Shown in pieces: positions 17,042 through 25,161 of a stretch of 64,000 bases of DNA. A model generated the notes under the pieces. The model worked only from the letters and a program-made list of their open reading frames with translations, made no database searches and had not been told where the DNA came from. This DNA is from Clostridia bacterium (GTDB lineage Bacteria; Bacillota; Clostridia; UBA1381). The translations under genes and the position numbers were made by a program. Each line of letters begins with the position of its first letter. The first letter of the stretch is position 1. Location: positions 1-64,000 of the forward strand of contig JAFQJD010000007.1 in the NCBI GenBank assembly GCA_017415105.1, in the 5' to 3' direction.

Positions 17042-17733
17042 GTGAACGCTTTTCAAGAACCGAACGCCTTTTAGGCAAGCCGGCAATGGACAAACTGAAA
17101 AATGCACGTGTTGCAGTTTTTGGCGTTGGCGGTGTTGGCGGATATGTTGTTGAGGCACTTGTAAGGAGCGGTATCGGTGCAATAGATATTTTTGATAATG
17201 ATACCGTTGCAGAATCAAATATAAACCGTCAGATAATCGCAACTACAGATACAGTCGGCAGATTAAAGGTTGATGTGGCAAAGGAGCGTGCGTTGTCTAT
17301 AAATCCTGACATAAAGGTAACAGTTCACCCTTGCTTTTATATGCCGGATAATGCGGATAAGTACGACTTATCAGTATATTCATATATAGTGGATGCAATC
17401 GACACGGTTACGGCAAAAATCGAGCTTATAAAACGTGCAAAAGAAGCCGATGTGCCGATAATAAGCTCTATGGGGACAGGAAATAAACTTGAGGCATCTA
17501 TGCTTGAAGTGACGGATATAAAAAAGACTGAAATGTGTCCCCTTGCACGCACAATGCGACGCGAACTCAAAAATCTTGGTATAACATCACTTAAGGTTGT
17601 ATATTCAAAGGAAAAACCAATAATTCCTGATGACGGTGACCGGACACCTGCATCAACGGCATTTGTTCCTGCGGCGGCCGGTCTTATAGCAGCCGGAGAG
17701 GTGGTAAAAGATTTAACGAAAAAACTCTCGTAA
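17038..17733 (+). CDS. tcdA: tRNA threonylcarbamoyladenosine dehydratase (TcdA/ThiF family)
   Basis: A 231-residue E1-like protein with the nucleotide-binding glycine motif GVGGVGGYVVEALVRSG, the catalytic arginine region NRQIIATTDTVGRLK, and the family end TPASTAFVPAAAGLIAAGEVV. TcdA uses ATP to cyclise t6A37 in tRNA to ct6A. Pairing with mnmA makes this a tRNA-modification operon. Its stop codon lies in the loop of the terminator. Confidence 0.92.
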   Translation: MSERFSRTERLLGKPAMDKLKNARVAVFGVGGVGGYVVEALVRSGIGAIDIFDNDTVAESNINRQIIATTDTVGRLKVDVAKERALSINPDIKVTVHPCFYMPDNADKYDLSVYSYIVDAIDTVTAKIELIKRAKEADVPIISSMGTGNKLEASMLEVTDIKKTEMCPLARTMRRELKNLGITSLKVVYSKEKPIIPDDGDRTPASTAFVPAAAGLIAAGEVVKDLTKKLS

Positions 17734-17746
17734 TCGAGAGTTTTTT
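17719..17746 (+). terminator. Terminator of the nadA-mnmA-tcdA unit
   Basis: AAAACTCTCG (17721-17730) pairs with CGAGAGTTTT (17735-17744), followed by a T run. The loop is the tcdA stop codon. Confidence 0.88.
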
Positions 17747-17757
17747 CTTGAATTTGC

Positions 17758-17786
17758 TTTACAATTTTACATAAATTTAGTATAAT
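17758..17786 (+). promoter_or_regulatory. Promoter of murD
   Basis: TTTACA (17758-17763), 17-nt spacer, TATAAT (17781-17786). CAGGGAG lies before the ATG at 17818. Confidence 0.8.
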
Positions 17787-17817
17787 AAATATAATAATAA
17801 ATCAGGGAGTAGATAAT

Positions 17818-19187: not shown

Positions 19188-20225
19188 ATGCGAAATCTTA
19201 TAAGAAAATTAAGCGACCTGAGAGGTGCGTCCGGTCACGAGTACAGAATAAATGAAGCAATTGCGGAGATGTTCAGACCATATTGCGATGATGTCAGAAT
19301 TGATGCATTAGGCTCAGTTATCGCAGAAAGAAAATGTGGAAAAGCTAATGCACCGAAGGTAATGCTTGAAGCACATATGGACGAGATAGGTCTTGCTGTC
19401 AGAAAAATAACCGATGAAGGATATATTTACTTTTCAATGCTTGGCGGAGTTGATCAGAGAATACTGCCGTCATCTGAGGTTATAATCCACGGCACACGTG
19501 ATATTGAGGGCGTAGTAGGGTTCCCACCATCGGTTTGCGGTGATCCCCAAAAAAGCTATAAGTTAGACGAGCTTGCAATAGATACCGGACTTGATGCAGA
19601 AACGGTAAAATCTATTGTGACAGTGGGTGACAGCATAACACTACCGCAGTCGGTAGGTGAGCTTGGAGAAGGACAGTTCAGCTCAAAAACAATGGATGAC
19701 CGTGCGTCTGTTGCGGCAATCCTGAAGGTTATGGAGGATATAAAGGACTGTGACTTAGACTGCGATATTTACGCAGTTGCGGCGGTACAGGAGGAGGTCG
19801 GATGCCGTGGCGGTAAAACAACATCGTTTGGTGTAATGCCGGATATGGCGATTGCCATTGATGTTACACACGGTATAACGCCCGATAACTCCGACAATGC
19901 CATTGAGGTTGGAACGGGTACTGCAATGTCAAAGGGACCGAACATTCATCCGAAGCTTGCAGAACGCCTTGAAAAGACGGCAATTGAAAATGAGATACCG
20001 TACAATATCGAAATTGACGGCGGAGCAACCGGCACTGATGCATGGGAAATTCAGGTTTCCGGCGGCGGAATACCGGTGGCATTGATGTCAATTCCGCTTA
20101 AATATATGCATACATCAGTTGAAACACTTGCAATATCTGATGTTTTGGACACTGCAAGAGTTATAACAGAATTTGTAAAAGGACTGGAGGGTGATACAAA
20201 ATGGCTTTGTCTATGGACAGATTAA
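19188..20225 (+). CDS. M42 family metallopeptidase, first of three
   Basis: A 345-residue M42 (TET-type) aminopeptidase. All expected active-site elements are present: metal-binding His63 in EAHMDEIG, bridging Asp in KTMDDRASV, the catalytic/ligand Glu pair in QEEVGCRGG, Asp in AIAIDVTHG and the final His in LKYMHTSVE. The family forms 12-subunit tetrahedral particles that trim short peptides. It should be catalytically active. Its end overlaps the next M42 gene by 25 nt. Confidence 0.92.
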   Translation: MRNLIRKLSDLRGASGHEYRINEAIAEMFRPYCDDVRIDALGSVIAERKCGKANAPKVMLEAHMDEIGLAVRKITDEGYIYFSMLGGVDQRILPSSEVIIHGTRDIEGVVGFPPSVCGDPQKSYKLDELAIDTGLDAETVKSIVTVGDSITLPQSVGELGEGQFSSKTMDDRASVAAILKVMEDIKDCDLDCDIYAVAAVQEEVGCRGGKTTSFGVMPDMAIAIDVTHGITPDNSDNAIEVGTGTAMSKGPNIHPKLAERLEKTAIENEIPYNIEIDGGATGTDAWEIQVSGGGIPVALMSIPLKYMHTSVETLAISDVLDTARVITEFVKGLEGDTKWLCLWTD

Positions 20226-21253
20226 GCGAGCTTAACGCCGTTTCAGGCTTTGAGGACGAGGCAAGGGCGTATCTTATCCCTCTTATTAAAGAAAAATGCG
20301 ATAGCCTTGAGGTTGATAATATGGGAAATATTGTCGCTTTCAAAAAAGGCGAGAGCGATAAATACAAGATACTCCTCGGTACTAATATTGATGAGGTCGG
20401 GTTTATTGTAAGTGAGATTACCGAAAAGGGATTTATAAAATTTAAATCCGTTGGCACGATAGACCCGAGAACAATCGTTTCAAAACGTGTTGCAATCGGC
20501 AAGGACCGTATACCGGGCGTAATCGGTATGAAAGCAATTCACTTGCAGAAAAAGGAAGAACGTGAAGCTGCAGTTGAGGTTAAGGCTTTGTATATTGATA
20601 TAGGTGCAAAGGATAAAGAGGATGCACAAAAGCGAGTTAAGCTCGGTGATGCGATTGCATTTGCTACGAAATTTGATGATAAAGGCAGACTTATAAAGGG
20701 TAAAGCACTTGACCGTTTCGGAACAATTCCGGTACTTTCGGCAATGGACGAAGCTCCGAAATATGACACATATTTTGTGTTTTCTGTTCAACGTGAAATA
20801 CCGTGCTCGGTTATGGGACGTGGAATGAAGATTGCGGCGTACCCCATAAACCCTGACTTCGCATTGATAGTTGATACTGTAAATGCGGATGATTTCCCTG
20901 ATATAAAATCAGCATCCGCAATCCTTGGTAACGGTGCGGTTATAGAGTATATGGACAAAACCTCAATATCCGACACTGCGTTCATAAAAGAAATAGCAAA
21001 AATGGCAAACCGCAGCGGAATAAAGATGCAGAACAAAACAACGACAGCCGGTGCATCTGTTGCAGGTGCAGTCAATGTTGCATCACACGGTGCAGTTACG
21101 GCATCAGTGGGGATTGCGTGCCGTTATTCGCACACACTGGTATCATATATGGATAAGGACGATATAAACGCAGTATGCGATATATGCAAAGTATTTGTAA
21201 AAGAAAGTGACGTGATTATAGATGGATTTATTAAAGAAGCTGACAGAATTTGA
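20201..21253 (+). CDS. M42 family protein with lost active-site residues, second of three
   Basis: A 350-residue M42-fold protein. Two key residues are changed relative to both neighbours. The first metal-binding His is Asn62 (GTNIDEVGF against AHMDEIG), and the catalytic Glu is Arg198 (VQREIPC against QEEVG). The Asp (ALDRFGT), Glu199, Asp (LIVDTVN) and final His (RYSHTLVS) ligands remain. This predicts a peptidase-dead paralogue, perhaps a structural or regulatory subunit of a mixed TET particle; hetero-oligomeric TETs are known in Pyrococcus. GGAGGGTGAT precedes the ATG, and both ends overlap the flanking M42 genes. Confidence 0.88.
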   Translation: MALSMDRLSELNAVSGFEDEARAYLIPLIKEKCDSLEVDNMGNIVAFKKGESDKYKILLGTNIDEVGFIVSEITEKGFIKFKSVGTIDPRTIVSKRVAIGKDRIPGVIGMKAIHLQKKEEREAAVEVKALYIDIGAKDKEDAQKRVKLGDAIAFATKFDDKGRLIKGKALDRFGTIPVLSAMDEAPKYDTYFVFSVQREIPCSVMGRGMKIAAYPINPDFALIVDTVNADDFPDIKSASAILGNGAVIEYMDKTSISDTAFIKEIAKMANRSGIKMQNKTTTAGASVAGAVNVASHGAVTASVGIACRYSHTLVSYMDKDDINAVCDICKVFVKESDVIIDGFIKEADRI

Positions 21254-22202
21254 TGCACCGTCCGGCAAGGAACGGGTTTTGCACACTTTTTTGAAAGAAG
21301 AAGCGGAAAAGCTTGGCTATGAAGTAACAACCGATGCATTAGGTTCGGTTATAGCACATAAAAAGGGTAACGGCAAGAAACTTATGGTTGCCGCACATAC
21401 TGATGAAATCGGTGTTATTGCAAACTATATTGACGATAACGGCTTTATACGTTTTGGTGCAATCGGCGGTCTTTATAAAAAGGAGCTGCATAAACGCCGT
21501 GTCCGTTTCGAGAACGGAACGGTCGGAATTATAGGTGCACAGGAAACGGCATTTGACGATAAACCCGATATAAATAAACTGTTCATTGACATTGGTGCAA
21601 AGAACAAAGAAGAAGCGAAAAAACTCGTAAAAACAGGCGACACGGCCGTTTTTGACGGTGCATTTGCACTTAGCGGTGACACAGTAATATCAAAGGCACT
21701 TGATGATCGTGTGGGCTGTTATATACTGCTTAAAGCGATGGCAGAGATAAAAGAAAGTAAAAACGATTTGTATTTTGTGTTCACAGCACAGGAGGAGGTC
21801 GGAATACGAGGAGCAAAAACCTCAGCATACACAATTATGCCCCATTACGGCATTGCAGTTGATGTTACAGACACAGGCGATACGCCCGATGCACCAAAAT
21901 CCGATGTAAAGCTTGGCGGTGGTGCAGCAATAAAGGTTATGGATCGCTCGGTGCTTTGTGATGCAGAAGTTATCAAGACGCTCCGAACATTGGCAGACGA
22001 AAACTCAATTTCATACACGAACGAGATAATGACTGATGGCGGCACGGATGCAGGTGCTATTGCACTCACAGGCGGGGGTGTAAAGGCAGGAGGCATTTCG
22101 GTACCCGTGAGATATATTCATTCACCGTCAGAACTTGCGAGTGTCTCAGATATCAATGCGTGCATAAAACTACTGACTATAGCTTGTCGATATGAATGGT
22201 GA
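21222..22202 (+). CDS. M42 family metallopeptidase, third of three
   Basis: A 326-residue M42 aminopeptidase with an intact site: His in AAHTDEIGV, Asp in KALDDRVGC, the Glu pair in AQEEVGIRGA, Asp in IAVDVTDTG and His in RYIHSPSEL. It begins 32 nt inside the preceding gene, and I see no strong ribosome site, so it probably relies on translational coupling. The next gene starts 10 nt later. Confidence 0.91.
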   Translation: MDLLKKLTEFDAPSGKERVLHTFLKEEAEKLGYEVTTDALGSVIAHKKGNGKKLMVAAHTDEIGVIANYIDDNGFIRFGAIGGLYKKELHKRRVRFENGTVGIIGAQETAFDDKPDINKLFIDIGAKNKEEAKKLVKTGDTAVFDGAFALSGDTVISKALDDRVGCYILLKAMAEIKESKNDLYFVFTAQEEVGIRGAKTSAYTIMPHYGIAVDVTDTGDTPDAPKSDVKLGGGAAIKVMDRSVLCDAEVIKTLRTLADENSISYTNEIMTDGGTDAGAIALTGGGVKAGGISVPVRYIHSPSELASVSDINACIKLLTIACRYEW

Positions 22203-24369: not shown

Positions 24370-25161
24370 TTAATCAGATGTTTCGGACGGAATTGTCCGG
24401 AACATCTTTTTGTATGCACGGTAAAAAGATGAATAATCACGCCATCCGCTTTGCAGATAGGCTTGAGTAGGTGCAACACCACCTGAAATAAGATTATGTG
24501 CAAAAATAAGCCTCTTTTCGGTGATATAGCGATAGACGGATATTCCAAGCTCCTGCTTGAAATAATGCGATAGCAGAGTGGGTGAGATATGCAGTGAGCT
24601 TGCTATTTCTGCCAGTGATATAGATTTTTTGTAGTTTTTCTCAATAATATCCAGAGCATCTGCAATAATCGGATTTTTATGTTCGGAACGTAGTGTTACT
24701 GATATCTTAGATGATAAAAGCTTTAGTTCCAGCAAAATCTGTGCGAAGGCAGCCTGCAAAAGAATACTACGTTCACCCACTGAAAAGGGAAGAGAAAAAC
24801 TTTGAATCAGCTGATTGAAAAGCGTCTGTATTGTAGAGGGGATTTGGGGGATAATGAGTATTTCTTTCATAACACTTTCTATCAGGAGAGAAAGCTCAGC
24901 AATATCTGGGAAATTCAAAACGCATCTTTCATATAAGTCCTGATTCTGTATAGAAAATTGATGATAACATTCCTTTGGAATCAGCACCAAAGCTCCTTTT
25001 TTTAAAGACAGCTTTTCTTTTTGCGTTAAAAAAGTAGCTGTGTCACCAATGAAATATAAAATTTCATGATAGGGATGGATTTCCGATGCGTTTGTTATGG
25101 ATGGCCCTTTCGCATATCGGAACAATAACGAACCGTTTTCTATTCTGTTTTCCTGTTGCAT
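24370..25161 (-). CDS. AraC-family transcriptional regulator
   Basis: A 263-residue regulator. The N-terminal ~150 residues look like an AraC cupin sensor (LSLKKGALVLIPKECYHQFS). The C-terminal ~100 residues are two helix-turn-helix motifs (SLAEIASSLHISPTLLSHYF and GVAPTQAYLQSGWRDYSSFYRAYKKMF). The ATG at 25161 has GAGGTGAT at the right distance; an upstream TTG at 25179 lies in the promoter. It is divergent from the ketodeoxygalactonate operon and is its likely regulator. Its last codons overlap the terminator of the peptidase gene. Confidence 0.92.
   Translation of the reverse strand: MQQENRIENGSLLFRYAKGPSITNASEIHPYHEILYFIGDTATFLTQKEKLSLKKGALVLIPKECYHQFSIQNQDLYERCVLNFPDIAELSLLIESVMKEILIIPQIPSTIQTLFNQLIQSFSLPFSVGERSILLQAAFAQILLELKLLSSKISVTLRSEHKNPIIADALDIIEKNYKKSISLAEIASSLHISPTLLSHYFKQELGISVYRYITEKRLIFAHNLISGGVAPTQAYLQSGWRDYSSFYRAYKKMFRTIPSETSD
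24376..24411 (+). terminator. Terminator of the M3-SLH gene, inside the end of the AraC gene
   Basis: AGATGTTTCGGAC (24376-24388) pairs with GTCCGGAACATCT (24395-24407) with one G-T pair, followed by five T residues. It lies within the last codons of the convergent AraC-family gene. Confidence 0.75.

Follow-up and report, generated by a model that had tools for sequence, protein, structure and literature searches.

A probably loop-donating M42 pseudoenzyme beside active paralogues in aminopeptidase arrays of Clostridia

Paralogous M42 aminopeptidases are known to associate. PhTET2 and PhTET3 of Pyrococcus horikoshii enter one 12-subunit particle in vitro, although both partners are active, the building blocks are modelled as homodimers, and none of the subunits is dead (PMC4220976). 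The Bacillus subtilis M42 paralogues YtoP and YsdC (model 9a5r, a fold match) were crosslinked together in cells, but this pair is not known to include a dead member (PMC10090944). Thermotoga maritima has the same three types of protein as the arrays reported here, TM1048, TM1049, and TM1050 (1vho, 2fvg, and 3isx/4p6y), and their loops follow the pattern of intact arrays, with a His in 1vho and 2fvg and none in 4p6y (TmPep1050). Unlike the second member at our locus, however, 2fvg keeps its whole site. The three T. maritima genes are neighbours.

In the mitochondrial processing peptidase (MPP), a dead homologous subunit lends a substrate loop, and in both MPP and bacterial M16B heterodimers the metal site lies on one subunit (PMC11266112, PMC12731061). 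These enzymes differ from the present case in belonging to family M16 and in being clam-shell shaped rather than tetrahedral, and the available parts of the sources describe no reciprocal loop loss. We encountered the MPP-like pattern at the level of sequence, as a live first member (P1) without the substrate loop and a dead second member (P2) with it; Pfam scans of both gave M42 only, and not M16. Human DNPEP (family M18) resembles our locus in that His170, at the tip of a loop swapped from the opposing dimer subunit, completes each site; the H170F enzyme is inactive, and M42 proteins conserve this His (PMC3472314). Unlike the arrangement considered here, DNPEP forms homodimers with two complete sites (PMC3472314). 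The corresponding His123 of PhTET2 possibly sits close to the site of the neighbouring subunit, and mutating it lowers substrate affinity up to tenfold (PMC8993905). Among open-licence papers we found no M42 pseudoenzyme or dead M42 subunit, and the term "M42" is absent from a 2024 review of metallopeptidase pseudoenzymes.

The M42 locus and its middle member

The window, the whole 64,000-nucleotide stretch analysed, contains three forward-strand M42 genes (P1, P2, and P3; Table 1), which are all those of the 1.8-Mb assembly (assembly-wide count, 3). ORF coordinates and PF05343 scores agree with the initial annotation that they overlap head to tail, by 25 nt between P1 and P2 and by 32 nt between P2 and P3. 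P2 scores far above the PF05343 curated cut-off of 23.2 bits, and its AF2 model (pLDDT 86.9, pTM 0.87) has the M42 fold. In structure comparisons the closest folds were TET aminopeptidases, including 5ds0 (Z 43.8, rmsd 1.8, 339 aligned) and PhTET2 1y0r (Z 42.3, rmsd 1.5, 319 aligned).

Table 1. Features of the M42 locus and its surroundings (positions in the window)
Feature	Position	Strand	Remarks
Terminator-like site before MurD-like gene	17718-17747		Consensus match only
Promoter-like site before MurD-like gene	17758-17795		Consensus match only
MurD-like ligase, upstream of P1	17818..19176	+	ORF and Pfam
P1 (P0001, 345 aa)	19188..20225	+	PF05343 254 bits; AF2 pLDDT 86.2, pTM 0.87
P1 loop GVVGFPPSVCGDPQKSYKLDEL, no His	19509..19574	+	Shortened by 3 residues relative to f1 arrays in which P2 is intact
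P2 (P0002, 350 aa), M42 pseudoenzyme, proposed loop donor	20201..21253	+	PF05343 223 bits; closest PDB chain 2fvg/TM1049
P2 first metal motif LGTNIDE	20375..20395	+	Alignment; Asn62 replaces His (PhTET2 His68), Asp64 kept
P2 inter-subunit loop GVIGMKAIHLQKKEEREAAVEVKAL	20516..20590	+	His114 (PhTET2 His123)
P2 bridging-Asp motif GKALDRFG	20699..20722	+	One residue deleted; KALDDR elsewhere
P2 catalytic motif VQREIPCSVMGRG	20786..20824	+	Arg198 replaces catalytic Glu (PhTET2 Glu212), Glu199 kept
P2 motif LIVDTVN	20864..20884	+	Asp225 kept (PhTET2 Asp235)
P2 motif YSHTL	21125..21139	+	His311 kept (PhTET2 His323)
P3 (P0003, 326 aa), TmPep1050/PhTET2 type	21222..22202	+	PF05343 296 bits; PDB matches 1y0r, 4p6y
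P3 short loop GIIGAQETAFDDKPDINKL, no His	21525..21581	+	
M3-like metallopeptidase with three SLH domains, next after P3	22192..24366	+	ORF and Pfam; 11-nt overlap
Terminator-like site past M3-like gene	24376-24407		Consensus match only

Alignment to PhTET2 bears out the initial reading that P2 has Asn62 for the first metal His and Arg198 for the catalytic Glu. The accompanying statement that the other ligands remain stands for Asp64, Glu199, Asp225, and His311 but not for the Asp182-Asp183 pair of PhTET2, in which Asp182 bridges the metals; P2 has a single Asp here (KALDRF for KALDDR). Four residues are inserted after Glu199. Set against the catalytic Glu and five metal ligands of an active M42 enzyme, P2 is therefore deficient at Asn62, at Arg198, and at the shortened Asp pair. 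Every metal ligand and the catalytic Glu are retained in P1 and P3, as had been claimed, and the complete P1 site consists of His63, Asp65, Asp170, Glu202/Glu203, Asp225, and His308. Chance or sequencing error does not account for the loss in P2, because each of the 16 P2 copies readable in the window genome's genus lacks the catalytic Glu, as do copies in seven further genera. Judged by these residues, P2 is a real, conserved pseudoenzyme. The sole loop His of the window genome sits on this dead P2, and neither P1 nor P3 carries one.

Site and loop loss in Clostridia arrays

We collected P2 relatives from 70 genomes of the window genome's family (f1), 69 of which had a P2 match, giving 68 copies with a readable site. 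The catalytic Glu was lost in 45 of these, spanning 8 of 17 genera, and 23 were intact. Alternative ligands at the lost positions, named at the outset as evidence that would speak against a dead site, were looked for in the relatives and none was found; eight different residues (R, K, Q, H, S, Y, L, or C) replace the Glu, and the metal ligands erode differently lineage by lineage. The metal ligands are wholly or mostly retained in the dead P2 copies at loci L055, L053, and L070, where Tyr, Gln, and His stand in place of Glu, which suggests that the catalytic Glu was the first P2 residue to go. In a tree of P1 and P3 from which loop and active-site columns had been removed, the f1 dead-P2 arrays formed one clade (support 100), and in the first set of loci all P2 copies outside f1 were intact. 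The dN/dS of dead P2 was 0.06 to 0.23 in 12 pairs, several with dS >1, indicating purifying selection; it was about twice that of P1, which counts against a heterodimer reading.

The loops of f1 were kept and lost in a different pattern from the sites. All dead (45/45) and intact (23/23) P2 copies retained the loop His. In P1 this His was present beside intact P2 in 21/21 arrays and stood at its column in 6/45 of the dead-P2 clade, and loop length was 25 residues in 21/21 arrays with intact P2 versus 19 to 22 in 45/45 with dead P2. Beside intact P2, the loops read Pro-Pro-His in P1 and mostly Ile-His or Val-His in P2, with no such His in P3; no aligned P3 copy had a His at the loop place, occasional others lying elsewhere within the span. 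We then scored the columns conserved in arrays with intact P2. The f1 dead-P2 clade kept 13/34 columns of the P2 site motifs and 9/10 of the P2 loop, versus 28/28 of the P1 site motifs and 2/11 of the P1 loop; the corresponding values in family f43 were 12/30, 9/11, 20/21, and 1/6. By Fisher tests, the excess retention of the P2 loop had a p of 0.007 in f1 and 0.11 (not significant) in f43 alone, and the deficit of the P1 loop a p of 4e-6 in f1 and 3e-4 in f43. If P1 and P2 dimerised, the pair of lost elements would make up one of the crossed sites, and the pair of retained elements would make up the second.

The proposed survey of Clostridia showed that the array is widespread and that P2 death recurs, in f1, f43, f81, and f19. 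In a class-wide sample the array was common (matches at 1e-55 in 61 of 118 genomes, a few of them of P3 type only), and outside f1 and f43 all three members were usually intact. Of 208 arrays, 192 had readable P1 and P2; four (G165, G192, G334, and G490) were set aside for truncation or the presence of X, and adding four f19 arrays to the remaining 188 gave 192 in the final counts. Before counting we removed the broken, duplicate, or surplus copies at L225, L226, L229, L240, L245, and L246, along with L237, for which L301 was substituted, and L096 to L100, L102, and L103, which lay outside the consolidated set. Dead P2s are overrepresented, weak P2 matches having been deliberately sought (18 genomes, then f43, then f19); the P1 loop was not considered in choosing genomes. 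The f43 search took in all 49/49 matching genomes and another search part of 207.

In 188/188 arrays P2 kept its loop His, and in 187 of these P1 kept its catalytic site. The P1 loop His was missing from 53/60 arrays with dead P2 versus 3/132 with intact P2 (192 arrays). Dead P2 was found in 12 f43 arrays (genera g66, g119, g160, g223, g250, and g252), in f81 (G404), and in f19 (G108, G142, G168, and G195), and 17/17 of these arrays had lost the P1 loop His and kept both the P2 loop His and the P1 site. Relatives with intact P2 and a Pro-Pro-His P1 occur in f43 and in f19 (G387 and G455). The link between P1 loop loss and P2 death is, on these sequences, strong yet not absolute. The remaining 7/60 dead-P2 arrays, all in f1, retain the His in a shortened P1 loop; G050, G364, and G233 have lost the P1 His though P2 is intact; G178 has Gln for the first His of P2 beside an intact P1 loop; and seven intact-P2 arrays of f13 and f47 have a short P1 loop with His. 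These exceptional arrays may be stages, in either order.

P2 death requires nine changes on the tree of 192 arrays, at least six of them on supported branches. A Pagel-type test of correlated evolution between P2 death and P1 His loss, of a kind that single events can inflate and run on a quick tree with long branches, gave a likelihood ratio (LR) of 62.3, the maximum in 60 simulations of independence being 10.7. With the 188-array set, the LR was 43.1 without the f1 dead clade and 26.7 in f43 alone. As a control, P3 death versus P1 loop loss showed no such link (LR 5.8, p 0.21). A stricter, independent-pairs test, underpowered with only 6 usable pairs, had 4.9 in the same direction, 0 opposite, and 1.1 without difference (median p 0.0625).

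Some genomes carry a reduced set. G142, G195 (f19), and G404 (f81) each have just two M42 matches, a live P1 that lacks the loop and a dead P2 that carries it; in G404 these sit on different contigs. Five genomes had been picked as having P1 without a P2 match, on the expectation that a lone P1 would retain its loop. Four (f19) proved to have a dead P2 adjoining P1, below the P2 search threshold, and fit the pattern of P1 loop lost and P2 loop kept; in the fifth, G197, P1 keeps PPH and the short contig holds no P2.

The P3 site was lost independently in f43 (nearly family-wide), f11, f13, f19, f21, f30, f32, and one f1 genome (G035), and in most families with a dead P3, P1 and P2 are unaffected. 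P3 is absent from G142, G195, and G404, and some genomes (f47) have none beside P1-P2. In genus g9 (L059, L072, L158, and L159) the order is P3, about 1.6 kb, P1, P2. Since P3 has moved in g9 with P1-P2 adjacency kept and is missing or dead elsewhere, we conclude that P1 and P2 behave as the unit and P3 as an addition. P3 is also broken in 12/12 dead-P2 arrays of f43; in these arrays, as in G142, G195, and G404, the P1 site is the one live M42 site that the P2 loop could serve.

A crossed-site heterodimer and its alternatives

Based on these patterns of retention and loss, we consider it likely that the catalytically dead P2 is an obligate heterodimer partner of P1 and provides its His loop in trans to the P1 metal site. 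Each protein would thus probably depend on the other for function. The loops would cross within a P1:P2 dimer, so that site A would combine the P1 metal center with the P2 loop, and site B the P2 metal center with the P1 loop. The P2 His loop would clamp substrate in the metal site of P1. Site B, its halves encoded in two genes, would have decayed as a unit in the f1 clade and several other lineages, and site A would have been kept as a unit. We infer the physical P1:P2 heterodimer, the crossing of loops in these proteins, and a tetrahedral assembly, perhaps with P3 dimers. The comparisons give good support to a dead subunit retained beside active paralogues with which it works. Among the roles first suggested for it, the substrate-guiding one takes a specific form, P2 keeping the clamp loop that P1 and P3 lack. 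More broadly, it seems fairly likely that the M42 arrays of Clostridia encode obligate crossed-site P1:P2 heterodimers, and that at least six lineages lost one site piecemeal, from two genes, in a recurrent one-way ratchet from two sites to one that leaves an enzyme dependent on its dead partner's loop. An intact array, such as that of Ruminiclostridium cellobioparum (L094), is predicted to give heterodimers with two live sites. TmPep1050, the P3-type protein of T. maritima, and CelM cleave Leu-pNA when made alone (PMC3511314); TmPep1050 is active without a loop His, and therefore the loop is not always required, which counts against the heterodimer reading.

An unlikely alternative is that P2 is a homomeric, nonenzymatic protein, such as a peptide binder or regulator, whose loop has a task of its own, with P1 loop loss as a separate change of specificity. 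Purifying selection on P2 and the retained fold would suit such a protein. However, across at least six supported changes the P1 loop disappears along with the P2 site, whereas it does not follow P3 death, and what dead P2 preserves best is a loop that acts on another subunit in relatives. We regard it as very unlikely that the P2 loop instead serves the P3 active site in P2:P3 dimers. Under that arrangement the decay of the P1 loop alongside the P2 site is left unexplained, and the P2 loop is kept where P3 is dead (12/12 f43 dead-P2 arrays) or absent (G142, G195, and G404), even though the lack of a loop His in every aligned P3 would give P3 a use for it. That P2 is still a peptidase with replaced residues is highly improbable: Glu199, Asp225, and His311 remain, and L055 keeps all metal ligands and misses only the catalytic Glu, but eight different Glu replacements offer no consistent substitute and the erosion of metal ligands is lineage specific. 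Least credible is a functionless product of a decaying pseudogene, for which the lost site and roughly doubled rate might be cited, given a full-length frame across 8 genera (in copies that no contig end truncates), dN/dS of 0.06 to 0.23 in 12 pairs, and 9/10 loop columns kept.

If P1 and P2 do form a heterodimer with crossed loops, M42 gene sets would offer a testable rule for the choice of partner among paralogues, the orientation of the pair, and the purpose for which a dead member is retained. The arrays would represent a repeated natural experiment in the passage from symmetric dimers to obligate heteromers, with lineages at various stages, some having lost the loop while the site is still intact and others the site while a remnant loop persists. 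A single recombinant P1 or P2 from such genomes is predicted to look weak or inactive, and annotation of P2 as an aminopeptidase would be wrong.

Neighboring genes and further observations

L303, L304, and L306 (f19) are minimal two-gene sets of a live P1 without the loop His and a dead P2 with it. Dead third members occur in at least seven other Clostridia families (L193, L199, L201, L203, L204, L206 to L210, L218, L257 to L299, and L071). Besides its own array (L057), genome G021 carries one that matches the array of G017, from another genus, at every P1 and P3 column (L052 and L056), reflecting either contamination or recent transfer.

An Rfam search at the M42 locus gave no match. The promoter- and terminator-like consensus matches suggest that the genes from the MurD-like ligase to the M3-like peptidase form one transcript. 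The M3-like SLH protein is a probable surface peptidase and probably shares this transcript with the M42 set.
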